64,000 nt of DNA from Coffea arabica. Lineage: Eukaryota; Streptophyta; Magnoliopsida; Gentianales; Rubiaceae. The stretch spans positions 4,526,001 through 4,590,000 of the forward strand of contig NC_092310.1 of assembly GCF_036785885.1 (NCBI RefSeq). The letters run 5' to 3'. Positions 21,290 through 58,916 of the stretch are shown piece by piece. The position numbers and the translations under genes were made by a program. The notes below the pieces were generated by a model, which had not been told where the DNA came from, did not search any database, and saw only the letters and a program-made list of their open reading frames with translations. Within the stretch, counting starts at the first letter, position 1. Each line of letters begins with the position of its first letter.

Positions 21290-21382
21290 GCAAATGGAGA
21301 GGCACTCTGATTCCAACATCTTCACAGGCTTCTTAGGCTTAACATTCCCATCAAATAGTTGCATTCTAGTTCAGGGGAAAAA

Positions 21383-23060: not shown

Positions 23061-23199
23061 TGCTGCAGTGCCGACAAATCACCTCACGAAATACTAAAAT
23101 AATGCTAGTTACAGGTAGTCGTCTAACTTACTCATCTTTAGCGACAATTTTGATCCATTAGCATTTTTTTATTCTATTAAAATAATGATTATAAATCCT

Positions 23200-24120
23200 G
23201 TGTAAGTTTTATAGCTAAAATGGTAAGTTTGTGCACTAAACTAGTAACTTTAATCATTCATCAATTTTACCATTTTATTTGTAAAATTTACCATTTTTTA
23301 ACAAAAACTTACCATATTTGAATTAAACTTACTAATTATAATTATTGTAACTTTCTTAAGTAAAATGGTAAGTTTGTGAAATAAAGTAGTAAGTTTGAAC
23401 AATTCACCAAATTCACTATTTTATTAATAAAACTTACAATTATTTGACTTAAATTTACATTGTAAGTTTTTAGAATAAAATGGTAAATTTTTGTAATAAA
23501 GTACTAAGTTTGAACAATTAGCCAAATTTACCATTTTATTAATAAAAGTTGCCATTTTTTGACAAAAACTTACTATAATTTGAATTAAACTTACAGATTC
23601 AAACTATGATAAGTTCCTCGAGTAAAATGGTAAGTTTGTGCAATAAAGTAGTAAGTTTGAACAATTAGCCAAATTTACCATTTTATTAATAAAAGTTGCC
23701 ATTTTTTGACAAAAACTTACTATAATTTGAATTAAACTTACAAATTCAACCTATGAAAAGTTTCTCAAGTAAAATGGTAAGTTTGTGGAATAAAGTAGTA
23801 TGTTTGAACAATTCACCAAATTTATCATTTTATTATTAAAAGTTGCCATTTTTTAACAAAAACTTACTATAATTTGAATTAAACTTACTAATCCCAACTA
23901 TGGTAAGTTTCTTGAGTAAAATGGTAAGTTTGTCCAATAAAGTAGTAAGGTTGTTCCAATCACCAAATTTACTATTTTATTAGTAAAACATACCATTTTG
24001 GGACAAAAACTTACTATTATTTGAGTTAAATTTACTGATTCTAACTTTTGATAACTTTGTATAGTAAAATAACAACTTTGGATCATCCGTAAAATTTATC
24101 ATTTTGTTTGGAAATAAAAT
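23200..24120 (+). repeat. Minisatellite, ~147-bp unit, about six copies
   Basis: Unit core: AAAATGGTAAGTTTGTG(C/G/A)AATAAAGTAGTAAGTTT, then CCAAATTTACCATTTTATTA, TTGCCATTTTTTGACAAAAAC, TTACTATAATTTGAATTAAACTTAC. Unit anchors near 23595, 23743 and 23890 give a period of 147-148 bp. GTAAGTTT and its complement AAACTTAC alternate, so each unit is partly self-complementary. Confidence 0.85.
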
Positions 24121-24658
24121 AAAATTTATGTATTTTAATCCCAAAACTTATCATTTATCTAGAAATACTTACTAATAGTGATAAATGCACACTTAATGTA
24201 TGTGAAATAAAAAATACATACTATTTATTGTGAATGAATTTTATATAAAATTTTTTATTGTTAAAGCAAATTCTAATTTTTAAATTATTTTCACAAAATG
24301 ATTGTTGTGTTTGTAGTTATTGCTTAGAAGTGTTTATGTTGAAAAAATATGCTTAAATAATTAACTTGATGCTCATAGGTAGTTATCTTGGCAATATTTA
24401 TCTAGGTAGTTAAAGTTTCTATAAGGACAAAAATGAAAGTACACAAAGTAACAACCAAATGTTTATACTAAACTTCCTTCTCTCCCTTTATATATAGTAT
24501 AGATGATAATCAGTTTACTTAATATTATGTCCATGAAATTTTTAAGAGTGTGGAAGATTTTGTTCAAAGCCACAAAATAAGATTATCATCATGAATAGCA
24601 TTTCTAGTTGTACAAAGGATTAATCTCTATTGTAGTACTTGGGACTATATAAAAAAAA

Positions 24659-31164: not shown

Positions 31165-32077
31165 CTTCTTGTATGTGATAATATTTGCATGTAATGCAAG
31201 AAAAATCATAACATCTCCGGCTCATAGTGTCTGCCAACAAGTTCACAGTCGTTATATAAACTCTTGTAATCTGATTATTTGAATTATTCATCGTGTATTG
31301 TGTATATTGTATTTGCAACATTCAGTTGACTGTGTTGTTTAACATTCGTTAATTGCCATTTTTAGTCAAAGGGTCTTTAGATATTGGCATTGTCAAATTA
31401 TACAACCAACGCTGTTGTGATGCGTCCACGGGAATTTACATTCTTGTTCTTTTCTTGATTCTCTCATCAAGCTGAATTATTTTCATCAATTCAGTAGATG
31501 GGAAAAATTCGATTTCCAGGCCCTCTACATTATTACAATACAATATTCATGGATGATGTATTGGTGGAGACGACAATTTGGACGTATGGTTAGGCATTTG
31601 CATATAGTGCATTATCTTCTCTGATAACTGGAGCCCAGGTTTGGACACACTTAATAATAGTTATTGACCATTATGAGGTTGAAATTTCAATGGTGGGCGA
31701 AACTTTTCATCCCTTTTCTTTAATTTTTCATGCCTTTAGTCTGGAAGTCTCACCCATTCCTTCTTTAAGTTACCACATTGCATCCGAGACTTTTATACTA
31801 TGCTAATTATTGTTATCATAAGCACTATTTTTGCTTTAACATGTGAAGTCCCTACCAAAAGCGAAGGGAAAAAACAAAAAAATATACTGCTAGATTATAA
31901 TAATTCTTTCAGTGGAGTCTAGGAAATTTCGTTTTGGAAAAAAAAAATAAAAGATAGGTAATGGATTCATTGCTTTGTAACTCTAGCTGTTGAATGTTGA
32001 GCATCTCTTGCTGCAAAAAATAGTCCAACTATTCAACCAAAGCATTTTACCTTCATCTGTTAAGAGTTTCACAGAAG
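31165..32077. other. Spacer upstream of the NLR gene
   Basis: Oxidase 3' flank, then AT-rich sequence up to the NLR start. No convincing TATA box or other gene. Confidence 0.5.
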
Positions 32078-35000
32078 ATGCCTGAAGCTGTACTCAGTTT
32101 TGTTAGTGTAATCTTGAATAAGATACTTTCACTAGCTGCCGACGAGGTCAGCCGGGTATGGGGTGTCAAGAAAGACCTTGAGAAGCTTGCTGAGGAAGTA
32201 CAGATGATGGAAGCTTTGATTCTTGATGCTGAAGGCAAGCAATCAACAAGCAAAGCCGTGCAGCTTTGGCTGAAAAGGCTCCAGTCCATAGCACGTGATG
32301 CGGAGATCGTGTTAGATGACTTCGGATATGAAGTTCTGCGGCAGAAGGTTGAGAATCGGAAGCGCGACAAGGTACGCAACTTCTTTTCTTCCTCAAATCC
32401 TATTTCCTTTCGTCTAGAGATGGCTAACAAGATCAAGAATGCTAGCGCATCTCTAGAGGAAGCGTACAGACGTGCAAATCAAATAGGGCTTCATCCAGTT
32501 CAACTACCCATGACATCTGCTGATCACAAAGAGGATCGGTGGACTGATCCTTTTGTGGAAGAGTCAGAAATGGTGGGAAGGGAAGTTGAGGTATCTCAAG
32601 TTGTAAGCATGTTAATTAGCTCAGACTATAAGAAGGATTTACCTGTCATCTCAATAGTTGGGATGGGTGGCCAGGGTAAAACAACCCTTGCACAGCTGGT
32701 GCTAAAAAAATGACAGTGTAGTGAAACATTTTGATGAAACAATATGGGTTTGTGTGTCTGATGATTTCAAAGTGGAAAGGCTGTTGAATGAGATGCTACA
32801 ATCCCTTAAGGGAAAAAGTGCTGACACAACAAACAGGGAAACATTGGTGAAGGAGCTTCAAGATAATCTGAAAGGAAAACGTTACTTGCTTGTGCTTGAT
32901 GATATTTGGAACGAGAATCGACAGAAATGGGATGGCATGAGGAGACGTTTGTTGGCAATAGGGGGTGCTTCAGGAAGCAAAATATTGGTTACCACACGTA
33001 GTGATGAGGTAGCCTCAGCAATGCAAACATCTGGTTTGCATCATCTAGACATCCTCTCAGATGATCATAGCTGGATGTTGTTTGAAAAACTAGCTTTTGC
33101 AGATGGTGGTGCAAGAAAGACTCAAGATCTGGTGGACATTGGCAGAAGGATACTGAAAAAGTGTGGCGGTGTGCCATTAGCGATCAAAGTGATTGGGGGT
33201 TTGTTGTATTCCAAAAAGGATGCCTCGGAATGGTTGAAGCTTGAGAAGAGTGAAATATGGAATGAGTCGGCCAATAATGAAGGTGGAGTCATTTCTGTCC
33301 TGATGCTGAGTTGAGAAAACTTACCTTCATTGTCAGTGAAACAATGCTTTGCAAATTGTTCCATTTTCCCAAAGGACACTGACATGGAAAAACAAAGCTT
33401 GATACGGATTTGGATGGCCCAGGGATTGATTAATGATGCCAAGGGAGGTCATTTGCAAATGGAGGATGTAGGCAGTGACTATTTCAACATATTGCTTCGG
33501 AGTTCTTTGTTGCAAGATACTTCTGAGAATTCCATTAACGGAATCAAACGCTGCCGGATGCACGACCTTGTGCATGATCTTTCATTGCAAGTGTCAAATA
33601 ATTGTCTCTTAAATACAGAGGATGGCATGGTAGTCAGTCATGATGATGAAGTATTGCATTTGACCATCATTCTGAGTCGAGGGATGGTGTTAAAGAATAT
33701 CAAAGGGATACCTCCAAATTTGCAAACGCTTTATCTTGTGGGTCATGGTATTTTGTTCGAAGACATCTTGGAAACATCTAGATATCTTTGTGTGTTAATA
33801 GTAGATTGCTGGGATGCTACTCATCTCCCGAATGCAGTTGGTAATATGAAACATTTAAGATATCTTGATATCAGTAAAACTCGTATCATCACTCTGCCAG
33901 ATTCCATCACAAAGCTCTACAATTTGATGACCTTGAAAGTAGTTTACTTGACAGAGATACCTAAGAAGTTTAGCAATTTAATTAACTTGAGGCATCTCGA
34001 GTTTTCCGAGTTTCATTTGCAGACCCGATGTTTGTTCCCGGGAATTGGGCAGCTGGCTAATCTTCGGACATTGCCCCATTTCGTGGTAAGCCAAGACAAG
34101 GGATGTCAACTTGAGGAGTTGGAACACTTGCGCAACCTCCGAGACAAGTTAGAAATATTTGGACTTGAGAATGTGAGCAGCTTTGAATCAGCAGCAAAAG
34201 CAAAGTTGTCCGAAAAATCAAGCATTCAAGGTTTAAGACTTTCATGGAATGACAGGAGCGAAGATTGTGACGACAACAATATCAATACTGTCATGGAAGG
34301 TCTTCAACCTCACCCAAACTTGAAAAGTTTAGCCATTAACGGTTTCAAAGGTTCAAGGTTTCCGTCGTGGATGGTGGCAAAGGATCATTTGATACTTCGG
34401 AATCTGGTACGCCTCAGGTTGGAGAAATTGGGTAAGTGTGAACAAGTACCACCACTAGGGGACTTGCCTTGTCTCGAGTCCTTAGCGATGTTCTCCTTAC
34501 ACAATGTGAAGTGCATTGGGGCTGAATTCTATGGTCTTGAACATCTCGATATTAATGCAAGGAGCAGCAGTTGTAGTAGCAGTAGCAGTAGCAGAGCGGT
34601 GAAACCAATCACTCTGTTTCCGAAACTATGGCGTTTTGAGTTGGAGGGCATGGGAAGTCTAGAGGAGTGGTCAGATGCAATGGTTCCCTCGGATTCTTCT
34701 TCATCAATTAAGGTATTCCCTAATCTCCGGGACTTGAGAATCCAAAGGCTCCCCAAGTTGGCAGTTTTACCGGATATGGAGAACTTGACATCTCTTAAAT
34801 CCTTACACTTATGGGATTGCGGAAGTTTGTCTTGTATAAGGAATTTGAATAGCCTTACATCTCTTGAATCCTTAGCCGTAGCAGACTGCCCTGCTTTAGA
34901 TGCTTCTCTGGACATGAAAAACCCCCAATCCCTACGTACTCTAACCATCTTAGGATGTGATAACTTGAATCCTTCATTGAGTAATAATCTTGAGAAGTTC

Positions 35001-35549
35001 ACATCGCTTGAGTGGTTGTGGATCCGTTCTCATGGCCCTGGTTGTTGGGCAAAGGGTCTACACCATCTAGCCAACCTCCACAAGTTGGACCTCGGTGGTT
35101 TCTCTGATGACCTTGATCATTTCCCGTGGCCAGACTCCATCACCAACGTTGCCAGCGGTGCCAAGAATGATGCTGATTCTGCAAAACAACATCTCGTCTC
35201 TCTGGAGCGTCTTGAATTGCGTGGATGGCCAAAAATCTCGTCTCTCCCAGACCAAATTCAGCATCTCTCTACCTTGAGAACCTTAAAGATACGGGAGTTT
35301 GAGGGGTTGGAAGTTCTTCCAGAGTGGATAGGTAGCCTTCGGAATCTCCGAGGATTGTGGATTGCTCACTGCTCTAACCTCAGACAATTACCCTCTGCAG
35401 AAGCAATACGACACCTCACCAATTTAAATCGACTAGTTATCCACTACTGTCCTCTTTTAGCAGAGAGATGCACCAAAAGAAGTGGCGCAGAGTGGCTCAA
35501 AATTGCACATATTCCCGATATTGGTATCTATCCGTTCAACAAAGTTTGA
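32078..35549 (+). pseudogene. CC-NBS-LRR (CNL, RGA-type) disease resistance gene, two lesions
   Basis: Single-exon NLR, normally an intracellular immune receptor. The start is MPEAVLSFVSVILNKI. Coiled-coil N domain (~residues 1-150, with a VQLWLKRLQSIARDAEIVLDD-like EDVID region). NB-ARC follows: P-loop VGMGGQGKTT (~32657), kinase-2 LLVLDDIW (~32890; the final W marks a CNL), RNBS-B GSKILVTTR (~32980), GLPL-type GGVPLAIKV (~33166), MHD motif RMHDLVHDL (~33556). Then a long LRR region to 35549, with a Ser-rich insert (SSSCSSSSSSR, ~34565). Lesions: one extra A in the A-run at 32705-32711 shifts frame just after the P-loop, and an in-frame TGA at 33312-33314 replaces the Tyr expected in LS-Y-DNLP. 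The LRR part is open for 739 codons. Either a young pseudogene or, for the A-run, a possible sequencing error. Confidence 0.93.
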
Positions 35550-37881: not shown

Positions 37882-38507
37882 GGTAAGACTTACCTCCTTT
37901 AGAGGCAAATTATGACCCACATGATTGATTGATATTCTAATTAATTGATTGACAATTAATTGGTATCTCCCATTAGGCAATGATTGGTGATTGGTATCCT
38001 AATTAATTGATTGACATCTTGTCAATAATTAATTAGTATATTCCATTTGTTAGTGATTGATTGATATCTATTATTAATTGATATTTTATTCAATTAGTTA
38101 ATCAATCAAATCAATCAATTAGTCAGAAAATATTAATTTCAATTATGGATTTTGGCAAGAGTTCCTTGATGGAAGGAAACCCTAGAGATTTTTGTATTTG
38201 CCAGTAAGGGTCCCTAGCCTAGCTTGCCAGTAAGGGTCCCTAGCCTAGCCTATAAATAGCCTGTGGTATTCCATCAATTATACACTTTTTTGGTTAGGCA
38301 TAGGCTAGAAGATCCCTACTCTAAATTCTCCTTCTACTTTTCTCTTCTTCTACACATCTACATAGTCTCTTTGTCTACACAGACAAGAACAAAGTAAGAA
38401 GACAAGGAGTTGCAAAGATCAATCTCTGTTCAACAACAATAGTTGGAGGTAAGTCATTTAAATTTCCGCTGCGTAGTACAAGTTATTTGTACTTATTTGA
38501 ATTAACA
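37882..38507 (+). repeat. Left LTR of the Copia element
   Basis: 626 bp, ends TTGAATTAACA. Rich in (A/G)ATTGATTGATA words. It contains two copies of CCAGTAAGGGTCCCTAGCCT where the right LTR has one. A TATAAATAGCC promoter-like motif follows. Confidence 0.9.
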
Positions 38508-41500
38508 TGTGGTATCAGAACCACCCTCTAGCCATGTTGTTTAATATATAACTTCATGGTTTGTTGGCAATCTGAGAAAAGTTATATAGATTCATTTAAT
38601 ATTGAATGAATCAAATTCAATTTGTCATGGGATCTATGTATCCATTATCTCAATTATTGAGAATTAATGGCTAATTCCATGTCTATGTATCATCCTTGTG
38701 ATGATTTATTTATCATGCAAGTATGTGACAATTAATTTTCATTTGGTTATGCTTGTATATAACAACATAACTAATTTTATCTTGCATGAATTATGATTAG
38801 TATACTTATGCCTTTTGACTTTGCATCATGTATGCTAAATGAAGGTTGAACTTTGCTTTTGAGGCTCTTTATGAGTTCTATTTAAATAACTCCATGCCTC
38901 TTGAAATTATTGGTTAATAATTGGCATAGCAAGTTGCTTGTTTCACCTAATTATTTAAACTATAATTTGTGACATTTATCAACCTTTCATTTTGTCACCT
39001 TTATAGATGTTATCATAAAGATTTTGCATCTTGTATTTAAGAGTAGCCACAACATCTTATATGCTTGATGTTTAGAATTTTAATCACATAAATGTCTTGT
39101 GATTACTTGAATAACATCTAATTAAGTAAACAATTAATTTATTAAAATTATCACTTGGCCCACAGGAAAGTGATAGTTTTAATAAGATTAGTTGAAATAA
39201 GATGGTAAATTTAACATTGTGCTAAGAGATTTTCCTAGACCCACAGGTATGGAAATTTCTATTTTTGTTAATAGTTTTAATTTACCAGTCTTATTATAAA
39301 GAAAGTAAATTCAATGCGTGTTTGGCAACCTCTACCCACAGGAAGGTTTTGAATTTATTATTTGAATTAACATTGGTTAATTCAATCTTTATGTCTTAAA
39401 TTTCATAGCAATAATGTATGTTTATTCTTGGATATTGCAGTTTTTTCTACCACTACTCTTTTTAATGATTCATCTCGTATTCCAATGCTATCCGGTGAAA
39501 ACTACACTGAATGGAAGGACAAGATTCTTCTAACTTTGGGGTGCATGGATCTTGATTTGGCCGTTCGTGAGAATGAACCACCCATTTTCACGGATTCTAG
39601 TTTGCCAAATGAAAAGGCTGCTTATGAGCGGTGGGAGCGATCTAATCGCCTAAGTTTGATGCTCATTAAGTCGCATATCAGTCAAAGCATTAGGGGTTCA
39701 ATTCCTGATTGTGACCGGGTCAAAGCTTACATGAAAGCAATTGATGAACAATTTGTAAGCTCTGACAAGGCTTTGGCTAGCACCCTTATGAAGAAACTTG
39801 CAAGCATGACACTTGACAAAAGTAGGAGTGTGCGTGAGCACATTATGGAAATGAGGGATATTGCGGCTTAATTAAAGTCCCTTAAAGTTGAGATTTCTGA
39901 ATCATTTCTTGTACATTTCATTCTCAACTCTCTTCCGTCGGAATATACTCCGTTTAAGATCTCTTATAACACACATAAAGAAGAATGGTCAATTAATGAA
40001 CTATTGACCATGTGTGTTCAAGAGGAGGAGAGATTGAAATATGAGACACCAGAAAGTGTTCATCTAGTGACTCATGGTAAAGGAAACACAAAGAAAGGAA
40101 AAGGCAAGAGTGTTCTTATGAAAAAAGATGGCAATGAAGACAAATGCCGTTTTTGCAAAAAGAAAGGACACTGGAAGAAAGATTGCCTCAAGTACAAGAA
40201 ATGGCTCGAAAAGAAAGGTAATCTCACCTTTGTGTGTTATGAATCTAACTTTACTGAAATTTCTGATAATGCTTGGTGGATTGATTGTGGTTCTACAATT
40301 CACATTTCCAAAACCATGCAGGGCTTTCTGAACCTAAGGAAGCCATTGGGAAGTGAACAAAGCATCTATTCTGGAAATCGGACGCATTCATCTGTTGAAG
40401 GCGTGGGGACCTGTAGACTCATTTTAAAGACCGGTTTTCAATTAGATCTTGAAAATACTTTTTATGTTCCATCCTTTTCTAGAAATTTGATTTCTCTTTC
40501 TAGACTATCTATTATTGGATATGATTCCAATTCTCATATTTTAACTATGAATCTTTTAAAAAATAATAAAATTATTGGTTCTGCCAATTTGGATGGAATG
40601 TTATTTAAACTTGAGTTAGACCCCACATATGAATATAGCCTTTTAACTGTGCATGGTATTGGTACTAAACGCAGTATTATCAATGAGAACTCTCTAAAAC
40701 TTTGGCATAGGAGATTGGGACATATCTCCATTGATAGAATCAAAAGGTTGGTGAATGATGGAGTCTTACAGACTTTAGATTTCACTGACTTTGGTACTTG
40801 TGTAGGCTGCATAAAAGGTAAGCAGACTAACAAGACCTCAAAAGGTGCCAAAAGAAGTTCTCAATTACTTGAGATTATACACACAGATATCTGTGGATCT
40901 TTTCCTACCCCTTACTTGAATGGTCAGAGATATTTTATCTCATTTATAGATGATTATTCAAGATTTATGTATCTCTATCTCTTGTTTAATAAATCAGAAG
41001 CACTTGATGCTTTTAAAATTTTCAAATTAGAGGTAGAGAAACAAAAGGAAAAGAAAATCAAAATTGTGAGATCAGATAGGGGTGGCGAATATTATGGAAG
41101 GCACACAGATAAAGGACAGGCATATGGTCCATTTGCTAAGTTTCTCCAAGAAGAAGGTATTGTTGCTCAATATACAATGCCTGGCACACCACAACAAAAT
41201 GGTGTAGCCAAAAGGAGAAATAGAACTCTCATGGACATAGTTAGAAGCATGATTAGCCGTACCAGTTTACCTTTATCCTTATGGAGTGAAACTTTAAAAA
41301 CAGCTGTGTATATTTTGAATAGGGTACCATCCAAGGCTGTGCCCAAGACGCCTTTTGAGATTTGGAATGGATGGAAACCTAGTTTAAAACATTTACGCGT
41401 ATGGGGTTGTCCAATTGAAGTGAGGGTATATAACCCACACATTAAGAAATTGGATGAACGTACAATTAGTGGCTTCTTCATAGGCTATGCTATTAACTCC

Positions 41501-43892
41501 AAAGGGTTTAGATTTTACTGTCCTTCACACACTAAGAAATTGGATGAACGTACAATTAGTGGCTTCTTCATAGGCTATGCTATTAACTCCAAAGGGTTTA
41601 GATTTTACTGTCCTTCACACACTCCAAATATTGTTGAAGCTAGAAATGCTAAATTTCTTGAGGAGCATGAAATCAGTGGGAGTGGTTCTCAAAAAGTGGA
41701 ATTTGAAGAAGTAAAGGATGCACTTGTGCCAACTTTACATGATCTAGTTGTTATTCAAAATATTGAAGAGCAACCAATTGAGCAACCTCCACTTGAGCTA
41801 CCACAACAAGAACAATCAACAATAGTTGATCCCACTAATCAAACTTCCCATGAAACAGTGGGAGTTAGAAGATCTACAAGAATTAGAAGGCCAGCAATTT
41901 CTAGTGATTATGAAGTATATCTCCAAGAGTCTGACTGTGATGTTGGACTTAAGGATGACCCTAATTCATTTTCACAAGCCATGAATGGAGAAAACTCCAC
42001 ATCTTGGTATAATGCCATGAAAGAAGAAATGGAATCAATGGCTAAAAATAAAGTCTGGGATCTCGTTGAATTACCCAAAAAGGTCTCTATTGTGGGTTGC
42101 AAATGGGTTTTCAAAACCAAAAGAGATTCAATGGGTAATATCGAACGATATAAAGCTAGACTTGTAGCCAAAGGTTTTACTCAGAAGGAAGGCATTGACT
42201 ACCATGAAACCTTCTCTCCTATTTCAAAGAAGGATTCATTGCGTGTTATCATGGCAATAGTAACCCACTTTGATTTGGAGCTACATCAAATGGATGTGAA
42301 AACGGCATTTCTTAATGGGAATCTTGAATAAGAGGTATACATGTGTCAACCTAAGGGTTTTGTCAATAATGATAACAACCAACTTGTTTGTAAGTTAAAG
42401 AAATCTATATATGGACTAAAACAGGCTTCCCGTAAATGGTATATTAAGTTTCACAACGTTATCTCTTCATTTGGTTTTGTAGAGAATATTGTTGACCAAT
42501 GCATATACCTTAAGATAAATGGGAGTAAATATATCTTTTTAGTCCTATATGTAGATGATATTCTTCTTGCAAGTAATGATATGGGTTTGTTGCATGAAAC
42601 TAAAATGTTTCTTACACAAAACTTTGAAATGAAGGATATGGGTGAAGCCTCTTATGTCATTGGCATAGAGATTCATAGAGATAGAACAAGAAAAGTTCTT
42701 GGTCTGTCTCAAAAGGCCTACATTGAAAAGGTTTTGGAAGGATTTGGAATGAAGCACTACTCTTCCATTGCAGCTCCCATTGTCAAAGGAGAAAAATTCA
42801 GTTTGGATTAATGTCCTAAGAATGAGTTGGAACGAAAAGAGATGGATAGCATTCCGTATGCTTCACTTGTTGGAAGCCTTATGTATGCTCAGGTTTGTAC
42901 CAGACCTGATATTGCTTTCATAGTTGGAATGCTAGGTAGGTATCAAAGTAATCCTGGAAAGGATCACTGGAAAGCTGCCAAAAGAGTTTTGAGATATCTG
43001 CAAGGGACCAAGGACTACAGATTTACACACAAACAGTCTGATTATTTAGAGGTAGTTGGATATTCTGATTCGGATTTTGCTGGATGTGTGGACTCAAGCA
43101 AATCTACTTCGGGGTACATTTCCCTTCTTGCTGGAGAAGCAGTGTCTTGGAGAAGTATAAAACAAACAATTGTTGCATCATCCACAATGGAAGCAGAATT
43201 CATTGCTTGCTATGAGACTACATCACAGGCTTTATGGTTGAAGAACTTCATATCTGGCATAAAAGTGGTAGATTCAATAAGTAGGCCACTGAAGATCTTT
43301 TGTGACAACTCTGCTGCTGTGTTCTTTGCTAAGAACAACAAGAGTGGAAGTCGAAGTAAGCATATCGACATCAAGTTCGTAATGGTCAGAGATCATGTTA
43401 AAAAACAAGAAGTAATCATTGAGTACATTAATACTGAATTAATGATTGCTGATCCTATGACTAAAGGACTGCCGGCAAAAGTCTTTCAGGATCATGCAAC
43501 TCATATGGGACTCAGTAGCTCGTGCTAGATTATTTCTATTTTCTTGACCATTTGTGTCTAGACATTTGTTATTAATGTTTGCGCGCATTAAAATTGATAC
43601 ATGTATAAAGAAGTGATCTTTTGATTCATAAAGTTGGACCTTGAGTAACTTATATGAAGTTATTCATAAAGTTCTTTTAAAGCACTTAATTAGGAAGTAT
43701 AATATATTGTAATACATGGAAGGAAGTGTTCGCAATAAGAACATAACCGCCATGATTCGAATATTATCATTTTCTAATTAAGCAACTGCTCATAACTGTC
43801 GAGTCTATTGAGTGACAATAAAAACTTATGGCCACTTAAGCATCTAGTCACTCAAAGTTATCTGACTATGGCATGTGGGTCAAGTGGAAGAA

Positions 43893-44492
43893 TGTAAGAC
43901 TTACCTCCTTTAGAGGCAAATTATGACCCACATGATTGATTGATATTCTAATTAATTGATTGACAATTAATTGGTATCTCCCATTAGGCAATGATTGGTG
44001 ATTGGTATCCTAATTAATTGATTGACATCTTGTCAATAATTAATTAGTATAATCCATTTGTTAGTGATTGATTGATATCTATTATTAATTAATATCTTAT
44101 TCAATCAGTTAATCAATCAAATCAATCAATTAGTCATAAAATATTAATTTCAGTTATGGATTTTGGCAAGAGGTCCTTGATGGAAGGAAATCCTAGAGAT
44201 TTTTGTATTTGCCAGTAAGGGTCCCTAACTTAGCTCATAAATAGCCTGTGGTATTCCATCAATTATACACTTTTTTGGTTAGGCATAGGCTAGAAGATCC
44301 CTACTCTAAATTCTCCTTCTACTTTTCTCTTCTTCTACACATCTACATAGTCTCTTTGTCTACATAGACAAGAACAAAGTAAGAAGACAAGGAGTTGCAA
44401 AGATCAATCTCTGTTCAACAACAATGGCTGGAGGTAAGTCATTTAAATTTTCGCTGCCTAGTACAAGTTATTTGTACTTATTTGAATTAACA
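43893..44492 (+). repeat. Right LTR of the Copia element
   Basis: 600 bp, starts TGTAAGACTTACC and ends TTGAATTAACA; about 97% identical to the left LTR by eye. Confidence 0.9.
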
Positions 44493-45660: not shown

Positions 45661-45751
45661 GTGGATAAGGTATTCTGCTTTCAACATCTCAATAGGCTTC
45701 TAATACTAAACCTTCAACATCTATTTGCTACATTCTGGATAAGGAAAAAAA

Positions 45752-46613
45752 ATGGCAACCTCTGCTCCAAATAGAAAATTCTCCAGTCATTCTCGTTCCA
45801 TCAGTTTGCTGCCTTCATCTAACCCTCTTATCGTGACTGCTCAGGAAGATCTGGGAAGATTGAAGTCATCAGTAGCTGCATCCTCACCTTCAAACTCATT
45901 GCCATGCCAAAAGTTGGATGGCCTCAAGAACTTGTACGAGTGCCTGGATGATGTGCTTCAGCTCCCTTTAAGTCAAAGAGCTCTGTCCAATGAAAGAATT
46001 GGAAAATGGGAAGAAGAGGTCTTGGATGGATATCTCAGGTTGTTGGACATCTGTGGAGCAGTTAGAGACATATATTTACTGATAAAGGAAAGTCTGCAGG
46101 AACTTGAGTCATCTCTACGGTGGAAAAGGAGTGGAGACTGGGCCAGTGAAGTCAGCTCATATATGATTTCCAATAAGCACTTGAATAAAATCATCAGCAA
46201 ATGTTACAGAGTTGAAGAAAGCAGAGAAGAACTGCAACTTGGCAGTGGTAAACAAAGATTCTACCATGGTTAGCCTGATCAAAGAAGTCCAAATTGTTAG
46301 TCTCCCAGTGTTGGGGTCTGTTCTGTCTTTCCTTTCTGGATCTAAGGCGGGGTCACAACCAAGAGATTGGTCCTTGATGTCAAAGTTGATGCAACACAAG
46401 AGACCATCACACAGAGGAGACTCTGAAATTGCTGCGATCGAGCAAATAGAAATTGAGTTGCATCTCCTGAACAACAATAAGTCAAACAAGGATGTACTTA
46501 AAAAACTTGTGGCAGTAGACTCCAGCATTGAAGAATTAGCAGAGGTGCTTGAAATTGTGTTCAGGCTTTTACTGAAAACCAGAGTTTCCCTTCTCAACAT
46601 TCTCAACCACTAA
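45752..46613 (+). pseudogene. DUF241 family gene, copy 2 (one frameshift)
   Basis: Starts MATSAPNRKFSSHSRSISLL and matches copy 1 closely throughout. Near 46206-46213 the sequence TGTTACAGAGTTGAAG stands where copy 1 has TGCTACAAGGAATTGAAG, a net loss of 2 bp. This shifts the frame, and the original frame then closes at 46271-46273 after 173 codons. The C-terminal half is still open and conserved in the shifted frame (46212-46613), including SSIEELAEVLEIVFRLLLKT. One lesion only, so a recent loss. A truncated protein with the N-terminal half could still be made. Family function unknown. Confidence 0.88.
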
Positions 46614-47470
46614 TCTAGGTCACAATCAGCATGGATTCTCAAATACCATGCACCTCAATTTTGTTTACATTACCTTTGTACAAAATTGTACATATATAAA
46701 CTCATCTCAGAAATGAATACAGTACTGAAACAGGTTTTCTAATTTGAACTTGTTTGTTCCTTTGCTTGTCCATTGATTTTTGCCCTTAGCTTTCCTGAAA
46801 TAAATTCCACGGTTGATCAAAATAGAATCTTGCAGTAAACAAGCTTTATATTCTGTGATTCTTTTGTGTGAGGGTGTCTGGGATTGGAATAGAGTTAAAA
46901 CCTTCAAACAAAGTTTCAAATGTCCAGCAGACCATCTGCTACTTGGCAAAGGATTGTCGCTATGAGAATGGGAATGATAGTCTACCTAAATTTAGAAAAA
47001 TTAGACTCCAAATTAAGAACTGTGCACCTTAATGTTTTTCCTAGAGAGAATAAGAAACATTTTCTTCTACGTTTACAGTGAAAGCATCATGACAGAAAGA
47101 AATTGGTACTATTGACCCATCAAGCTCACATTGGATTTACTACTTAACTCTTTCTTTCAATTTCCTGAGTTCAAAACTCTCTTGTATAACCTTTTTCACT
47201 ATAAAGAGTTTTTCATATTATTTTCATAATCACCCCCAAGGCTGATGAACCAAGTCACTCACATGCATGATACAACAGGAAATTTTTCGACTAAAGCAGA
47301 TTTTGACAGCATAAGTAGTACTGACAGCTTTATTGATGTGGTTCCTTCTTTTCTTAGACTGGCGATTTTGCCTGAGGAAGACTAGTTTGTCAGTGGAAAG
47401 GGAAATACAGAAAATTGACATCACAGAAGCTGAGATAATTCAATCTAAATGCTTCATAAAATACTTTTCT

Positions 47471-47944: not shown

Positions 47945-49980
47945 TAGATCATTTATTGAGCATAAGAAAGAGAATTAACTTTATATGGTCCCCAAATGTC
48001 ACAGTGAATTAATTCAAAAAGATAAATTGTAGAAATAGAGCTGCTAGGGAAAGAAAGACGAATTTGTCGTGCAAGAGCACAAACATCACATCTATTATTC
48101 TTTTCAAAAGAAAAATTCAACAAGCTTTTGGACATAAAATCCAATCTGGAAAAGGATAGATGACCCAACCAACATACCACAAATCAGTGAAAGGAACCTG
48201 TGAAGAATGACTATGAGTACTAAGTGCTGTTGTAGCCATTGGTTTGTGAGAAGCCATTGCAATGAAGTAATAAAGGCCTTGATGTTGTTTAACTAAGCCA
48301 ATCATCCTCTTTGTCATCATGTCCTGCTAGATACACCAATATGGAGAAAAGGTTATGAAACAATTGAAATCTCACATAAGTCGACTCACAAAGATCAGAT
48401 CCACTTTACAAATAGGGACACTATGCACATTTTTTAAAGAAAAGGATGAATCTAAGGGTAAAGTCCTAGTTGAAACAATCGGAAACTTGTCTCCATTTGG
48501 TATAAGAATTGGTGGCAAAATAAATTTTTTTGAAGTTGGTGACCAAGTAAGATGATCTAAGGCACCACTATCAACAACAAGTGTTTTCTAGATAAACCTG
48601 GAGATACTTTAGTGATGTTCACCTTCGGATAAGAAGTAGAAAAGTGCTCTCCAATGGAGGTTACTGATTTATTATGCACAATGGATAGAATTTGCTGTGA
48701 TTGCAATTTGGACAACCCATTCGTTGTACTTTGAACATCAAGAAACCATCTTTAACATTGTGAATCGTAAATGAAAAATTTCCTTTGATTTTTCAAGAAT
48801 GTCAATGCCTCGCTTTAGGTTGGATAGATGTTTTTGGATGTCTAGGAGAAGATCCATTTAATTTCCAGCATGTTTTTATAGTGTGGTAATCCTTGTCACA
48901 ATAATCACAATGTAAATGTTTACAATTAGAGAAATTAGAGTGAGAAGAGAAACCTTGTTTGCTTTGAGTGGCAAAAAATTGTAGAATCGGGCTGTTGAAT
49001 ATGCATGGCATAATTCAGGACTATCTCCCTTGCAATACCTAAGTTATGCTGTTTTTCTTCCTTTGTAACAGGAGTATGCTTATCCGACATCCGACAAAGT
49101 TTCCATCAACAGGAATTGGCCACGAATTGCAGTGTAGGACTTATTAAGGCCCAAGAAAAATTGCATCAATAGGCGTTGCTTATTACCTACTCTGCAAGTG
49201 CAAACTGCATCATTATATGAAGCCAATTTATCTTGAAATTTTTTGTGCAATAAGCAGCAAATGACATTTGATCTTGGGTAAGACATGCAATATCTAGATT
49301 TATTTCGAAGATTCATGGTGGCTACTTTCAGAAAAATGACTCTTTATGTCTTCCCAGACTTTTCGTGCCATATTAGAAAAGATGACACTATCGACAAGAT
49401 CAGGTGTCAAAGAATTAATAATCCAAGAAAGAACCATGTCATTACATTTTTTTTCATGATGCATAATCTTCGATTGGGACTTTGCTGTTCTGATGGAATT
49501 TCGAGAGTTTCATCCACAAATTCCAACTTAGATTTGGCGTTTAAAGAAATTATCATAGCCCATTTCCAAGTAGGATAATTCTCTCCATTAAAGGGCTTTG
49601 AAACAAGAGTCATTCTAGAATAATCGGAATGATGAAGAAAAAATGATGGGTTGGATTGACGGCATCTGATTTGTTGGCACTTGTGATTGCTGAGAAGCTT
49701 TTTCAGCCATTGTTATTAAAATTTGATCGAAGAAGAGGAGAAATATAGCAGGGGATCAAATGTCCTCTGATACCATGAAAAGATGATAGAAAAAAGGGAT
49801 ATTTCTTTCATATACATTGAATGGGGACAATCCACTTTTTATAGAATTACCATATCTAATTCTACTAATTCCTATAATTGTGCTAAATTATGCTAAGCTA
49901 TCAATTTACAAAATCTTTCCTAATTACATTCTATTTGCAATAAAATCTATGTCATTAATTGTGTACTTGCCTTCTCAACA
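47945..49980 (-). mobile_element. Truncated Ty1/Copia element, minus strand
   Basis: Reading on the minus strand: LTR 49980-49776 (TGTTGAGAAGG…ATCTTTTCA, 205 bp), primer-binding-type TGGTATCAGAGG (from 49775), gag-like PFNGENYPTWKWAM (near 49590), a zinc-knuckle-like CDYCDKDYHTIKTCWKL (near 48900), and GAG-pre-integrase plus the first part of integrase (CDVCALARQIRLSFPSS, FELIHCDIWGPY near 48000). Nothing of reverse transcriptase or a second LTR follows, so the 3' half is gone. The coding remnant is broken many times and looks old. The LTR abuts the remaining DUF241 copy 3 sequence at 49981. Confidence 0.82.
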
Positions 49981-50616
49981 AAGTCAACAAGCTCTGTCCA
50001 ATGAAAGGATTCGAAAATAGGAAGAAGAGATCTTGGATGTATCTCTCAGGCTATTGGACATTTGTGGAGTAGTCAGAGGTATATATTTACTGATGAAGGA
50101 AAGTCTGCAGGAACTTGAGTCATCTCTACGGGGTAAAAGAAGTGGAGACTTGGCCAGTGAAGTCAGCTCATATATGATTTCAGATAAGCACTTGAACAAA
50201 ATCATCAGCTAGTGCTACAAAGAATTGGAAAAAGCTGAGAAGAACTGCAACTTGGCAGTGATAAACAAAGATTCTGCCATGGTTAGCCTGATCAAAGAAG
50301 TTCAAGTTGTTAGTCTATCCGTTTTGGAGTCCGTTCTGCCTTTCCTTTCTGGATCTAAGGCAAGGTCACAGTCAAGCGGTTGGTTCTTGGTCTTAAAGTT
50401 AATACAACAGAAGAGAGCATCACATGGGAGTGACTCTGATATTGCAGCAATCAAGCAAATAGAAATTGAGTTGCATCTCTTGACCAACTATAAATCAAAC
50501 AAAATAATACTTAAAAACTTGAGGCTATAGACTAGAGAATTAAGAATTAGCAGAGATGCTTGGAATTGTGTTCAGGATTTTGCTGAAAATCAGAGGTTCC
50601 TCTTCAACATTCTCAA
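49981..50616 (+). pseudogene. DUF241 family gene, copy 3 (5'-truncated, stops)
   Basis: Picks up inside the family sequence at QQALSNERI, so about the first 75 codons are missing, cut at the LTR of the Copia fragment. In-frame stops at 50018-50020 and 50210-50212 and a further break near the end leave no usable frame, though ESLQELESSLRGKRSG, KAEKNCNLAVINKDSAMVSLIKEVQVVSL and EIELHLL remain clear. The gene's 3' end and its flank continue beyond two later insertions, at 52699. Confidence 0.88.
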
Positions 50617-50625
50617 TTAATAGTT

Positions 50626-50858
50626 GGGAAAATCGCCAATTTAGTTCTCAAACTATTTTACTAAAGCCAATTTGGTCCCTCAATATTTTATCGCACGAAT
50701 TAAGTCCCTTAACTAAAATTCTTGTGCCAATTGAGAACTTATACGATGTCGCCACCCAAAAAACATGTATCTGTATAGAAACCAACGGCGAGGCAGGGCC
50801 TTTTTTGGAAGTACACATCCTAATTTCTACGGCAACCAAGACAGATCCCATTTTGCAT
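50626..50858 (+). repeat. Left terminal inverted repeat of the Pack-MULE
   Basis: Pairs with 52170-52402. Shared words include TCAATATTTTATCGCACGAA, ACTAAAATTCTTGTGC and GAAACCAACGGCGAGGCAGG; similarity fades after GACAGATCCCATTTTG. Confidence 0.88.
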
Positions 50859-50903
50859 TCAAATTGGGGAAACCTGTGAAATTAGGGGTTTTCCAAGATA
50901 TAA

Positions 50904-51629
50904 CCCATTTTGCATCCAAGACGCAACCCCAGTTGTAGCGCTCGGAGAGACTCGCCTAAGCAGCCGCCGCTGTCGCCGCCGAGAAGGAAAATGGAGTCGG
51001 CGAGGACCGTGAAAGATGTTTCTCCTCATGAGTTCGTCAAGGCTTACGCCGCTCACCTCAAGCGATCCGGCAAGATTGAGCTTCCACCTTGGACTGATAT
51101 TGTGAAGACTGGTACACTTAAAGAGCTTGCACCTTATGATCCTGATTGGTACTACATTAGAGCTGCTTCTATGGCAAGGAAAATCTACCTGCGGGGGGGT
51201 CTTGGTGTTGGTGCCTTTCGCAGGATTTATGGTGGTAGCAAGAGGAATGGCAGTCGTCCACCCCATTTTGGGAAGAGCAGTGGTTCTGTAGCTTGTCACA
51301 TTCTTCAACAATTGCAGGCCATGAAATTTATTGACCATGATCCCAAGGGTGGAACGAGAATCACATCAAATGGCCAAAGAGATCTTGATCAAGTTGCTGG
51401 AAGAGTTGCTGTAGCTCATTAATGGAATTCAGATTTGGTGACCTGATGAACACCTCAAATACTTGTGTCCATGACCCCAGATGTTTGTTCCATTTGTAGA
51501 TTCAGCATCCTTCAGAATCATATTAAATTTCTGGTTTAAAGGGAAGAATTCTTGAATGTGCGACCGATTTTGAATGTACAACTTTTCCCTTACAATTTGA
51601 TTAAAAAAAAACCCCATTTTGCATCCAAG
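50904..51629 (+). repeat. Retrocopy boundaries: 17-bp target duplications and poly-A tail
   Basis: CCCATTTTGCATCCAAG at 50904-50920 and again at 51613-51629; the second copy directly follows the A-run at 51603-51611. This is the pattern of LINE-machinery retroposition. A weaker version (CCCATTTTGCATTCAA) occurs at 50848-50863, inside the end of the left inverted repeat. Confidence 0.85.
50991..51422 (+). CDS. RPS19: 40S ribosomal protein S19 (intronless retrocopy, intact frame)
   Basis: 143 aa, starting [20 protein letters not shown] and ending GRVAVAH, the normal full length of plant S19. Conserved core [18 protein letters not shown]…[11 protein letters not shown]…SRPPHF, then [11 protein letters not shown]…[20 protein letters not shown]19 is part of the small ribosomal subunit head and is needed for 18S rRNA maturation. 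Plant S19 genes normally have introns; this copy has none. A 5' leader (50921-50990), a 3' UTR and an A-run (51603-51611) are included, and the whole is bracketed by the 17-bp direct repeat CCCATTTTGCATCCAAG (50904-50920, 51613-51629). It is therefore a retroposed mRNA, now inside a Pack-MULE. Every codon reads; expression is unknown. Confidence 0.9.
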
Positions 51630-51754
51630 CCTCATTTTTTGCCTTTTCAAGCTTTTTTGAATCCTTGGACATATTACATGAGTCCTCTTCTTCATCCATT
51701 CCTTGCTCTGCTGTGCTGCCCGTATTAAGTCCTCAAACTATCTTGCTTGGGGAC

Positions 51755-52160
51755 TGATGTAATACGAACTCCAGAGGGACCTGCTTGGGGTTGGTCTTGT
51801 AGGCGAAGTAGGGGTAGGCATTGATGAGGAAAGGGGAGCCAGTCTTGAGGTGGAAGTTGAGGATGGCGGTCAAACAGGGGGCGAGGTCCGGGCGGAACCT
51901 GCCGGCGGAGGGGGTGTAGAAAGTCTGGAGGATGGCAAGGGAGTGGGCGGTGGTGACGGAGACCTTGTCCTGGAGGTTGAGGGAGCAGAGGACGGAGTAG
52001 ACGCTCTGCATAGTGGGGAGGAGGTTGGGGGAGAGGGAGGTGTCGTTGAAGGTGAGGACCTCGTTACCGACGGTGATGCAGGTGATTCTGGTGGCGGGGA
52101 GGAAGGGTTGGACGTTGGCCTTGACCCAGGCGAATGTGCAAAGAACCTGGAAGTACTACT
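51755..52160 (-). pseudogene. Glucan endo-1,3-beta-glucosidase (GH17) fragment captured in the Pack-MULE
   Basis: The minus strand encodes about 130 codons in one frame: FAWVKANVQPFLPATRIT, then CITVGNEVLTFNDTSLSPN, LCSLNLQDKVSVTTAHSLAI, SAGRFRPDLAPCLTAILNF and GSPFLINAYPYFAYKTNP. This is the central part of plant GH17 enzymes, with the catalytic-acid VGNE motif. The N-terminal signal peptide region, the nucleophile region and any carbohydrate-binding C-terminus are absent. The left boundary runs into TIR sequence and the right stops after PLEFVL. It is GC-rich compared with its surroundings. No start codon context; not expected to make an enzyme. Confidence 0.85.
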
Positions 52161-52169
52161 GAAACCGGT

Positions 52170-52402
52170 CCCAAAATGATCGATGTCTTGCTCCGGTAGA
52201 AAATTATATTTTGGTGTTTCCAAAAATGCCCCTGCCTCGCCGTTGGTTTCTGTACAGATACATGTGTTTTGGGTGGTGACATCATATAAGTCCTCAATTA
52301 GCACAAGAATTTTAGTTAAATGACTTAATTCGTGCGATAAAATATTGAGGGACCAAATTGACTTTAGTAAAATAGTTTGAGGACTAAATTGGCGATTTTT
52401 CC
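52170..52402 (-). repeat. Right terminal inverted repeat of the Pack-MULE
   Basis: Inverse of the left repeat with about 10% differences, ending GGCGATTTTTCC next to the TTAATAGTT target copy. Confidence 0.88.
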
Positions 52403-52414
52403 TTAATAGTTTAG

Positions 52415-52689
52415 TTACTTTAGTAGGATTGAAAGATGAACCAAACTATTTGATACTTGAATCAAGTTCGATTTGGTAAGACCTTGTTTGAGAGTGGTTT
52501 GCTAACTATTCAATCAAATTTGAATAGCATTTTGTGTTTGATAACTTTCAAATTCGATAAAAAAAACTCTTTCAAATTCGGTTCAACAATTAATCAAGTC
52601 AAGTTTGAATAAAATTTCAAACTCATTAAAATAATCAAACAAGTTTGAACACTAGAATATTTGACTTGATTAGCCTTGTTTACGCCCTT
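52415..52689. mobile_element. ~275-bp noncoding insertion next to the Pack-MULE
   Basis: Flanked by ATAGTTTAG at 52406-52414 and 52690-52698, a 9-bp direct repeat (8 bp without the first A). Removing the insert restores the AATAGTTTAGGCACAATC arrangement seen in copy 1 (ACTAGTTTAGGTCACAATC). The insert is AT-rich with (A/G)AACTCGAT-type and CAAGTTTGAA words. No clear inverted ends, so the superfamily is open. Confidence 0.6.
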
Positions 52690-52698
52690 ATAGTTTAG

Positions 52699-53034: not shown

Positions 53035-54122
53035 TGCTACAGTGATGACAAGTCACCTCACAAAATACTAAAATAATGTTCGTTATTGGTGGTTGTCTAA
53101 GTTACCCATCTTTAGCAACAATTTTGGTCCTTTAGCGTCATTTCTGATTCCATTAAAATAATGATTATAAATTTTGTGTAAGTTTTTTTTAACTAAAATG
53201 GTAAGTTTGTTCACTAAACTAGTAACTTTAATCATTCATCAAATTTACCAATTTATTTATAAAACTTACATTTTTTAACAAAAACTTACCATTATTTCAA
53301 TTAAACTTACTAATTATAATTGTTGTAACTTTCTTAAGTAAAATGGTAAGTTTGTGAAATAAAGTAGTAAGTTTGGACAACTCACCAATTTACCATTTTA
53401 TTTGTAAAACTTTCTATTTTTTAACAAAAACTTACCATTATTTCAATTAAACTTACTAATTATAATTGTTGTAACTTTCTTAAGTAAAATGGTATGTTTG
53501 TGAAATAAAATAGTAAGTTTGGACAATTCACCAATTTACCATTTTATTTGTAAAACTTACCATTACTTCAATTAAACTTACTAATTATAATTGTTGTATC
53601 TTTCTTAAGTAAAATGGTAAGTTTGTAAAATAAAGTAGTAAGTTTGGACAATTCACCAATTTACCATTTTATATGTAAAACTTATCATTTTTTAACAAAA
53701 ACTTACCATTATTTCAATTAAACTTACTAATTATAATTGTTGTAACTTTCTTAAGTAAAATGGTAAGTTTGTGAAATAAAATAGTAAGTTTGAACAATTC
53801 ACCAATTTACTATTTAAATTGTAAAACTTACCATTATTTGAATTAAACTTACTACTTACAAAGTAGTAAGTTTCATTGGGGAAGTAGCAACATTTGATAT
53901 TTAAAGAGTAAATTTCATATCACACTTATAACTTATCAATTTTATTACCAAAATTACTATATTACCACCTAATGTTATTTTGAATATTGGAAACCTGAGT
54001 GAACAGTAGTGCAATTGTCGCTAAAGATACCAATCTTAGATGTGGGGACCGCTATTAACTGATTGTACCAGTATTTTAATGTAAAATATTCCCAAATTAT
54101 GGTAACAATCGGCACTGTAGCA
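53035..54122. mobile_element. Inverted-repeat minisatellite element (copy B)
   Basis: 1088 bp. Left end TGCTACAGTGATGACAAGTCACCTCACAAAATACT; right end, reverse-complemented, TGCTACAGTGCCGATTGTTAC, then AAAATACTGG. Same interior as 23061-26374: tandem units of GTAAGTTT/AAACTTAC words with periods of 146, 125 and 146 bp (anchors 53311, 53457, 53582, 53728). Noncoding. Confidence 0.68.
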
Positions 54123-54955: not shown

Positions 54956-57900
54956 TGTTAGGATGGCGGGTAATAGAATCAGGGATTTGTAAATTGGGAA
55001 AGGCCAAACGATGTCGTTTTGATTAATTAGGATTTAAAAGTCAGTTTAGTCGGTTAGTGGCTGAGTCACACGAATTGTAATAAATGCGAGGCCCACTGCT
55101 TTGCAATTCATCAGAGTAATAACAGAAATCTGTTTCTTCCTCTCTCCAATTTCCCTCTCTCTCTCTCTCTCTTTCTTACTTCTCCTTACTTCTTAATCCT
55201 TTCCAATTGAATGATTAATCACTGCCATTGCATGATTGATCACTTCAGTTCTTAACAATTGGTAATCAGAGCTTTAGATCCTTGGAGTGCGAACGAATCC
55301 ATGGTAGAAGGCACTAGATTCAAAACTCTAGAAGAACAAGTGAAAAGGCAAGAAGGCAAGCTTCAAGAGCTGATGGAATCCTTGCTATCACATCAATCCG
55401 AACAACAACAACTGAAGAACAACCTAAAGAAAGAACTGGAAGAGAATAATAAGCGAATGGAGAATCTGTTAACAGGAATGGAGCAGAATTTCAACAAATC
55501 CTTGGATCAGAAGTTCAACGCACTTCTATCCAAAATGACTTCTGCACAGGACAAGATCGCGGACAAAGAAGGAATAGTTGTGGTGGATTAGTCGCCAATC
55601 CTACCTACATCTCCAGCTCATCAGAGACTACAACATGAAGGAGAACAACAGCAGCATTTCAGAAGAGATTGGGATAAGTATTAGCTTCCAAATCCACCTA
55701 AGATAGATTTGCAGCTGTTTACTGGAGAAAATCCTAGGGAGTGGTTGCGCAAATATGATAAATACTTTATGAACTATCAAATTCTGGAAAACCAGAAGGT
55801 TGAAGTTATAGAGATGTACTTAGAAGGCAAAGCTGCTAAGTGGTTCCAAGGGGTAAAAATTGAGAAACCTGGATCAGGTTGGACAGAATTTGGAGATCTG
55901 CTATGCAAAAGGTTCATTGACAGTATTTGCAAGGATGTTGTGGAAGAATTTAATAAACTGCATCAAGAGGGCAGTGTGGAAGAATATCAGGAAAGATTTG
56001 AGGAATTGAAACCATTGATGTTGACTAAGAATCGAAAACTGGATGAAAACTAATTTACTTCTAGCTTCATCAGTGGCTTGAAAGAGGAAATCAAACCTAT
56101 GATTAGATTGCTGAAACCTGCTACTTTAACTGAAGCTTTTGAGTTGTCTCAGTGGCAAGAGCACTCACTCAAAATACAGAGTAAAAATTCCAAGGAGAGC
56201 TCCAAATAGGTGGTGGAAAATCGATTTGGAATGACAAGGGTGAATACATCCGCTGTAGGCAGCAACACCTATAAGGTTCCTATCAATAATACCCAAAAAA
56301 ATCTTAGGTTCAGCACCAAACTGCAGGAGGACACTAAAGAATTCAGGAAGATCTCAGCACAAGAGCTGCAATACAAAAGAAGTAAATGACTGTGCTTCAA
56401 GTGTGGGGAGAAATACACCATAGGTCACCAATGTAGGTTGGGACATGTAACCTGCATGATACTAGATGATGAAGAAGATGCTGTGTTTGAAGATGCATTA
56501 GGAGAGCAGGATGAGCAGACAGGAAATGCTGGTCAAACCATGGAACTGTCCCTGCATGCCTTGTCTGAATCACTGAAAAGGAAGACAATTACATTGACAA
56601 GCATCCTAGATGGTGAAAAAGTTTTTATACTAGTAGACACTGGGAGCTCAGATAGTTATATCAACAGTGAAATGGTCATTGGAATGGATATTGACTACAG
56701 ATGGGTGGACCAGCCATTCTCTGTCATCATGGAAAATGGAACTAGTGTATCCAGCAATGCTATCTGTCCTAATGTGCACTGGAAGATTAATCAACATAGT
56801 TTCAGATTCAATTTAAAGGTGATGGAGCTAGGGGGATGGGATATAATATTGGGAGTAGACTGGATGACACACTTCAGTCCTATCACATTTGACTTTCAAC
56901 AACTCAGGATATCACTGCATAATTAGGGAAATGAAGTTCACTTGCATGGACAGGCAGAGGACTGTGATATGGATCTGATCAAAGGGAAGGATTTGAGGAC
57001 ATTTATTGAGTATAAGAGGCAAATGTGCATGGCATTGAAATGTAAAAGTAATACAGAAGAGGGGGCAGAAACTATACCACAAGAAGTAGGAAAACTACTG
57101 CAGGAATATGATGATGTATTTCAGAAACCAAAATCTTTACCTCCTAGCAGAAGTGTATATCATGAAATTCCTCTCAAACCAGAGGCACAACCCTTCAAAT
57201 TGAAGCCTTACAGGTACCCTCACTGTTATAAGGAGGAACTAGAAAGGCAGGTGACAGAAATGCTTCAAACAGGGGTAGTCAAGTACAGTAACAACCCTTT
57301 TGCTTCCCGTGTGCTGTTGGTTAAGAAGAAGGAGGGAACTTGGCGGTTCTGTGTGGATTACAAGAAGTTAAATGAAATGACTATTAAGGACAGGTTCCCA
57401 ATTCCTAATGTAGATGAGTTATTGGATGAGCTAGCTGGTTCTGTCTATAAAACTAAGCTGGATCTCACAGCAGGAAACCATCAGATCAGAGTTAAGCTTC
57501 AGGATACTTTCAAGACAGCTTTTCAAACTCACTGTGGACATTTTGAGTTCCTGGTCATGCCTTTTGGACTCACCAATGCACCAGCAACATTTCAGTCACT
57601 GATAAACCAGGTATTCCAACCCTACTTGAGGAGATTTGTATTGGTTTTTTTTGACGATATTCTAGTATATAGTCCTACACTAGATGCTCATATACAACAT
57701 TTAAGGACTGTACTAGAGGTATTAAGGAAACACCAACTCTATGTGAAGAAGTCTAAGTGTGCATTTGCTTAGAAGAAGGTGGATTACTTGGGGCATACCA
57801 TTACTGATAAGGGTGTCAGCATGGATTACTCAAAAATCAGTAGCATCCTCCAATGGTCTGTTCCTCAATCAGTCAAGGAATTGAGGGGTTTCCTAGGTCT

Positions 57901-58916
57901 CACAAGGTATTATAGGAGATTTATAAAACACTATGGCCTTGTGTGTAAACCACTCACAGAACTGTTAAGAAAAGACAGTTTAAGTGGAACAGTCAGGCAC
58001 AAGAATCCTTTGATCAATTGAAGAAGTTAATGTACTCAGCTCCAGTACTTCAGTTACCAGATTTTCAGAAACCTTTTGTAGTGGAGACAGATGCTAGTGA
58101 GGGAGGAATTGAGGCAGTATTAATGCAAGAGGGACATCCCATTGCTTTTTTGAGTAAGGCCTTATCAGTCAAGAATCTGGGACTCTCAGTTTATGAGAAG
58201 GAGCTCTTAGCTTTAGTTATGGTTGTCACTAAATGGAGACATTACCTAGTGGGAAGTCATTTCATTATAAGGACTGATCATCAGTCACTAAAATACCTAT
58301 TGGATCCGAAGCTGAACACTGCCATTCAATACAAATGGATGACTAAGCTATTGGGATTGGATTATGAGATACAATATAAGAAGGGAACTGACAATCAAGT
58401 GGCAGATGCGTTATCCAAGAGGCATGAATCTATACCCTTGGAAGAGATGGGAACCTGTCTAACTATTTCATCTGTCAAGCCTGGATGGATTGAGGAGTTG
58501 CAGAATAGCTATGAAGGTGATTCACATTGTCAAGATATCATGAGCCAACTGGTTCTAGACTCCAATTCACATGCTGACTAAACCTTGTTGGATGGGATCC
58601 TGAAGTACCAAGGGAGGATCTATATAGGGAATGCCAACAACATCAGGAACCAGATAATTCAGACATTACATGACTCAGCTATAGGGGGCACTCTGGTCAG
58701 AAGAACTGTTGGTAGAAACTCAAGTCCCTATTCTATTGGCTTGGTATGAAGCAGGAAGTGATAACCTATGTGCAAAACTGTGATGTCTGTCAAAGGAACA
58801 AATCTAAACATGTTCCTTACCCTGGGCTGTTACAACCAATTCCAGTACCTAAACGAGCATGGCTTCATATCTCTATGGATTTTATTGAGAAACTCCCTAA
58901 GTCACAAGGGTATGAT
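54956..58916 (+). mobile_element. Ty3-type (chromovirus-like) element, 5' half, split by an Athila-like insertion
   Basis: LTR 54956-55257 (302 bp, TGTTAGGATGG…TTCTTAACA), then a primer-binding-type TGGTAATCAGAGC at 55260. The interior in order: gag (55.3-56.2 kb) with a CCHC knuckle, protease (VDTGSSDSYIN near 56640), reverse transcriptase (VDYKKLN, MPFGLTNAPATFQ, FFDDILVYS near 57650), RNase H (ETDASEGG near 58090) and the zinc-binding start of integrase (NCDVCQR near 58780). At 58916 the integrase is cut by the next element. The 3' part and right LTR are outside the window. Broken in several places. The short LTR, Met-type primer site and RT type suggest a chromovirus of the Reina/CRM sort, but the clade is not certain. 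Confidence 0.88.

Follow-up and report, generated by a model that had tools for sequence, protein, structure and literature searches.

Pack-MULEs are flanked by target-site duplications (TSDs) of about 9 bp, MER20 is an element of the hAT type, and plant eS19 genes generally have introns. In PMC4151081, processed pseudogenes are defined by the absence of introns, by poly(A) and by TSDs of 5-20 bp. For plants, PMC7935947 states that poly(A) was not discriminative for retroposition in the species studied, and that retroposition contributed modestly to the pseudogenes of four of five plants, with grapevine as the exception. Captured sequences in maize transposable elements can, according to PMC13317346, serve as siRNA reservoirs against their donor genes. 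The closest parallel that we found in print is the ARF6 retrogene in MER20 (PMC8277862). Here we describe a locus in a stretch of 64,000 bases with 36.7% GC (the window, meaning the whole of the DNA analysed), at which, with a probability of roughly 80%, a processed eS19 retrocopy, derived from an mRNA, is nested within a non-autonomous Mutator-like element, a Pack-MULE that also carries a fragment of a GH17 gene.

Ends, insertion site and class of the element

The MULE-like element occupies 50626-52402 and is delimited by terminal inverted repeats (TIRs), recovered by repeat comparison at 50626-50858 on the plus and 52172-52402 on the minus strand, with the TSD TTAATAGTT directly outside them at 50617-50625 and 52403-52411 (9 of 9 bp identical). 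With gaps allowed, the TIRs are 87.6% similar over 234 alignment columns, and their outer 185 nt are 93% complementary, the 13 differences being nine transitions and four transversions. The TIR divergence, K2P = 0.074, was not converted to years, since the ends of a MULE need not be identical at the start. A second full copy of the TIR was not found within the 64,000 bases; the other TIR-like matches in the window are short and weak, the best by E-value reaching 67.5% over 77 nt (48773-48840), and exact matches to one TIR pattern in viral contigs numbered zero. A TIR-like piece of 24 nt (83-88%) lies inside the element at 51724-51747, beside the GH17 fragment.

To assess the coding content, 14 translations overlapping the element were scanned with Pfam at E up to 0.1, namely S19, GH17, two short pieces and ten frames of 49-191 aa. 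The matches were to S19 and GH17 only, and none was to a transposase. The GH17 (beta-1,3-glucanase family) piece is an open frame on the minus strand at 51742-52131 that matches PF00332 at positions 71-195 of 306 (E 5.8e-24), and among solved structures it recovered seven distinct sequences at E up to 0.001, the best at 3.5e-25. It is a fragment, typical of Pack-MULE cargo. Between this fragment and the S19 unit are internal bases 51630-51735, without a Pfam match in the scanned frames. The original prediction had described inverted ends of about 230 bp, a perfect 9-bp duplication, no transposase and two host sequences in opposite orientation, all of which were borne out, with the eS19 frame on the plus and the GH17 fragment on the minus strand. 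Two further candidates were set aside. A captured minus-strand exon around the S19 insert gave, with the insert removed, an open stretch of 54 codons, both parts of which lack a Pfam match. A bacterial sigma-70 scan returned one site against 0.6 expected; such a bacterial model is meaningless for a plant host and was not used.

The surroundings of the element permit a direct view of the site before insertion. BPS1 (PF03087)-like copies are present at 21359-22246, as an open frame that covers the whole profile, and, in broken form, at 45743-46618 and 49981-50616. The left flank of the element (49981-50625) is 85% identical to 45970-46618 and 83% identical to 21602-22251. Homology to both paralogues ends at the MULE and restarts at 52691, from where identity is 77% to 46611-46832 and 79% to 22244-22463, and the paralogue segments that match the left and right flanks directly adjoin each other with an overlap of 8 bp. 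Once the MULE, one TSD copy and a 276-bp insert are excised, the remaining sequence is collinear with each paralogue through the region where the BPS1 frame ends. Because two BPS1-like paralogues in the window display the site without the element, the MULE insertion is real. The MULE entered a BPS1-like copy at its 3' end, and this copy is itself broken by in-frame stop codons.

The 276-bp insert, at 52415-52690, has an 8-bp duplication, TAGTTTAG, on both sides and is missing from both BPS1 paralogues; its right end resembles what we take to be a hAT-type MITE end. It is probably older than the MULE, since its left duplication shares bases with the TSD copy on the right of the MULE. Aggregated, the long TIRs, the 9-bp TSD, the host gene fragment, the lack of a transposase match and the empty sites in the paralogues support classification of the element as a Pack-MULE.

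The gene content of the window is of plant type, comprising BPS1, NB-ARC/LRR, copia-type and other retroelement pieces. Related tandem arrays with spacings of about 125-148 bp are found at 23052-24210 and 53148-53960, downstream of two BPS1 copies, an arrangement near BPS1 copies that suggests a segmental duplication. A CC-NBS-LRR gene (Rx_N, NB-ARC, WH_DRP and LRR) extends across three consecutive open stretches at 32024-35549 and is probably broken. Pieces of a copia-type retroelement are distributed over 37937-44028, with a shared 17-bp word on both sides about 6 kb apart that is compatible with LTRs, and another retroelement, at 56390-58581, has protease, RVT_1 reverse transcriptase and RNase H pieces in three open stretches. 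At 9296-10582, an open frame of 428 aa matches the formate-tetrahydrofolate ligase profile at positions 90-418 of 556.

The eS19 unit and its origin

The S19 cargo has a different anatomy. Its open frame of 143 codons (50991-51422, plus strand) matches Ribosomal_S19e, PF01090, at profile positions 1 to 135 of 137 (E 9.7e-55), which places it in the eS19 family and rules out a bacterial-type uS19, and its best matches among solved structures, at E of about 1e-80, are to what we take to be plant chains. The frame is uninterrupted through the entire protein, in agreement with the complete 143-codon frame of the original prediction. In front lies a putative 5' untranslated leader of 70 nt (50921-50990, 64% GC), whose left border is set by a repeat, and behind it a putative 3' untranslated trailer of 180 nt (51423-51602), followed by an A9 tract (51603-51611) that may be the remnant of a poly(A) tail; all are on the plus strand. 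GC content steps from 64% in the leader through 47.5% in the coding sequence to 36% in the trailer, with the TIRs at 37-39%. Searches for eS19 relatives in viral and in bacterial/archaeal contigs confirmed none from 13 and 39 pattern matches, respectively.

Just outside this leader-frame-trailer-A9 unit lie two copies of the direct repeat CCCATTTTGCATCCAAG (50904-50920 and 51613-51629, plus strand), identical at 17 of 17 positions and putatively a retroposition TSD. Neither the A9 tract nor the 17-bp repeats that bracket S19 had been part of the original prediction. When 65 nt from each S19 border were compared, the longest exact match was 17, whereas none of 500 mononucleotide shuffles gave one longer than 10. 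Exact direct repeats of at least 17 bp within 1 kb form 47 runs in the window: 33 belong to the tandem arrays at 23.2-24.0 and 53.2-53.9 kb, the S19 flank is one, and 13 are located elsewhere. With 13 other runs outside the arrays, the argument consequently depends on where the repeat lies and not on how long it is. A third, imperfect copy of the motif, CCCATTTTGCATTCAA, is situated where the left TIR meets the interior (50847-50862, plus strand) and shares 15 of 16 bases with the repeats that flank S19; it leads us to read the motif as element sequence that predates S19, not as flank of a donor locus. The 17-bp flanks fall within the 5-20 bp expected of the TSDs of a processed retrocopy, with the nearby third copy left unexplained.

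Retroposition of a whole spliced mRNA routinely copies entire frames, which would account for the completeness of S19. In the course of events that we favour, LINE machinery acting in trans, the likeliest agent in plants, would have reverse transcribed an eS19 mRNA, and the cDNA would have inserted at the CCCATTTTGCATCCAAG motif inside the MULE, thereby duplicating it. The GH17 piece would have been acquired separately, by ordinary MULE transduplication, and the S19 copy may have arrived either after the MULE had reached its present site or earlier, to be carried along. Several observations count against retroposition. The A tract, albeit in the expected place, is just 9 long, an A9 begins at 19 plus-strand positions in the window, and poly(A) did not discriminate retroposition in the plants of PMC7935947; the left border of the leader is defined by the repeat alone; and the third motif copy could mark a recurrent junction sequence instead of a TSD. 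The target of a classical L1 nick is expected to begin with an A-rich run. The duplicated motif has no such leading run and one extra C (51612) separates the A9 tract from its right copy, both of which likewise speak against retroposition.

Two other routes into the element have to be weighed against insertion of an mRNA copy. According to the original prediction, S19 was captured as other Pack-MULE cargo is, by transduplication of a genomic eS19 gene, and was unusual in being complete. The element is indeed a Pack-MULE, one with a second host fragment in it, and Pack-MULEs can hold several fragments. A genomic capture is not expected to yield an extent from leader to A tract, an uninterrupted frame and an adjoining 17-bp direct repeat, features that fit retroposition instead; we consider this route very unlikely. 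The Pack-MULE part of the original prediction stands, its account of S19 as ordinary capture is not supported, and of the two cargoes only the GH17 piece fits such a capture. The MULE may alternatively have captured a pre-existing S19 retrocopy along with its flanking duplications, or have copied RNA or cDNA by template switching during gap repair. The third partial motif copy and the TIR-like 24-nt piece in the element hint at patchwork repair of this kind, and the ARF6 retrogene in MER20, as described in PMC8277862, is explained by near-complete capture or by recurrent retroposition, the same ambiguity. The motif, however, matches the element's own inner TIR edge at all but one of 16 bases, which favours a target within the element, and a route by capture or template switching is in our judgement unlikely.

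Function and fate of the S19 copy

To evaluate the protein, six solved eS19 chains were compared (8auv, 7qiy, 9vth, 9h3g, 22tu and 3j6x), the first four of which we take to be from plants, three of these being closely alike, and 22tu and 3j6x to be human and yeast, respectively, an assumption also drawn from matches to query sequences. Of the 50 invariant columns, the S19 copy keeps 48, and on this count it falls outside functional eS19: at residues 102 and 122, where all six chains have Arg, it has Cys and Thr (R102C and R122T). 9h3g, the fairest comparator, departs from the other functional chains at 1 of 51 columns, and the three mutually close chains depart from the remaining ones at 0, 1 and 0, so that single departures are seen in two of the four and none in the other two. 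The human chain departs at 9 of 59 columns and the yeast chain at 26 of 76, numbers that reflect their distance. Measured against the four plant chains and human, the S19 copy departs at 4 of 76 columns (K42T, R102C, R122T and A141V), and 9h3g, measured against the three close chains, the S19 copy and human, at 1 of 73. In human eS19 the residues aligned with the two lost arginines are R101 and R121, both of which appear in Table 1 of PMC8181406 as contacting the 18S rRNA element h41es10. The codon for Cys102 is TGT, one transition from CGT, and it would represent CpG decay if the parent codon was CGT.

The divergence of the S19 copy as a whole is less distinctive. 8auv differs from it at 19 of 142 positions and from 9h3g at 18 (141 compared), and among 118 plant-only columns the S19 copy and 9h3g have eight private changes each. 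Since this total divergence is ordinary, decay is suggested and not demonstrated. Most likely, S19 persists here as a still open but non-functional or weakly constrained copy, which probably does not work as a ribosomal protein; loss of the two arginines speaks against production of S19 protein, whereas the ordinary divergence does not.

That the copy is instead a working retrogene, under purifying selection and expressed from the element, concerns its fate and is compatible with a nested retrocopy. The frame has stayed intact for 143 codons, and its total divergence resembles that among functional plant eS19 proteins. At 3.7% neutral substitutions per site, half of the TIR divergence, simulation gave an intact frame a probability of 0.53 when indels were left out and of 0.06 when they were assumed to occur at 0.13 per substitution. 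PMC7935947 moreover cites only 17.4% of Arabidopsis retrocopies as retro-pseudogenes, so that intact retrocopies are not rare in plants. On the other hand, Cys102 and Thr122 delete two arginines from one rRNA contact patch, and in the same kind of simulation a young neutral copy (0.5-1% divergence) would probably be intact, with probabilities of 0.70-0.47 including indels. We consider a working retrogene unlikely.

Implications and comparison with known systems

For annotation, the locus illustrates a trap, in that finding a whole gene between the ends of a MULE does not by itself show that the MULE captured it. Should the S19 unit have travelled with the element, the locus would offer a clear example, from a plant, of a full-length retrogene mobilised by a DNA transposon. 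It is improbable, although worth stating, that the Pack-MULE interior takes up whole spliced mRNAs, by retroposition or RNA-templated gap repair, and moves them, so spreading complete retrogenes and not exon pieces alone. The most concrete possible role of either cargo would be that of a putative siRNA reservoir against its donor genes, and the antisense effect on a GH17 gene that the original prediction raised is conjectural. Among the matches listed for Pack-MULE, retrogene and retroposition, in a survey that was not exhaustive, we saw none that describes an S19 retrocopy nested in a Pack-MULE of a plant.

The locus is a composite of two well-known processes, Pack-MULE formation and retrocopying. 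With the Pack-MULEs of plants it shares the long TIRs, the 9-bp TSD, the GH17 host fragment and the lack of a transposase match, but it differs from them in its complete S19 unit, which has the anatomy of a retroposed mRNA and not of a captured exon. With processed retrocopies, as characterised in PMC4151081, it shares the flanking 17-bp direct repeat; its uninterrupted frame and its A tract may be further similarities. Unlike these, the S19 unit sits inside a DNA transposon and its A tract is short. The ARF6 retrogene in the human MER20 Pack-TIR (PMC8277862) is likewise a near-complete retrogene within a TIR transposon, attributed to capture or retroposition, but there the element is human, whereas here a plant MULE is involved that carries a second, unrelated cargo.
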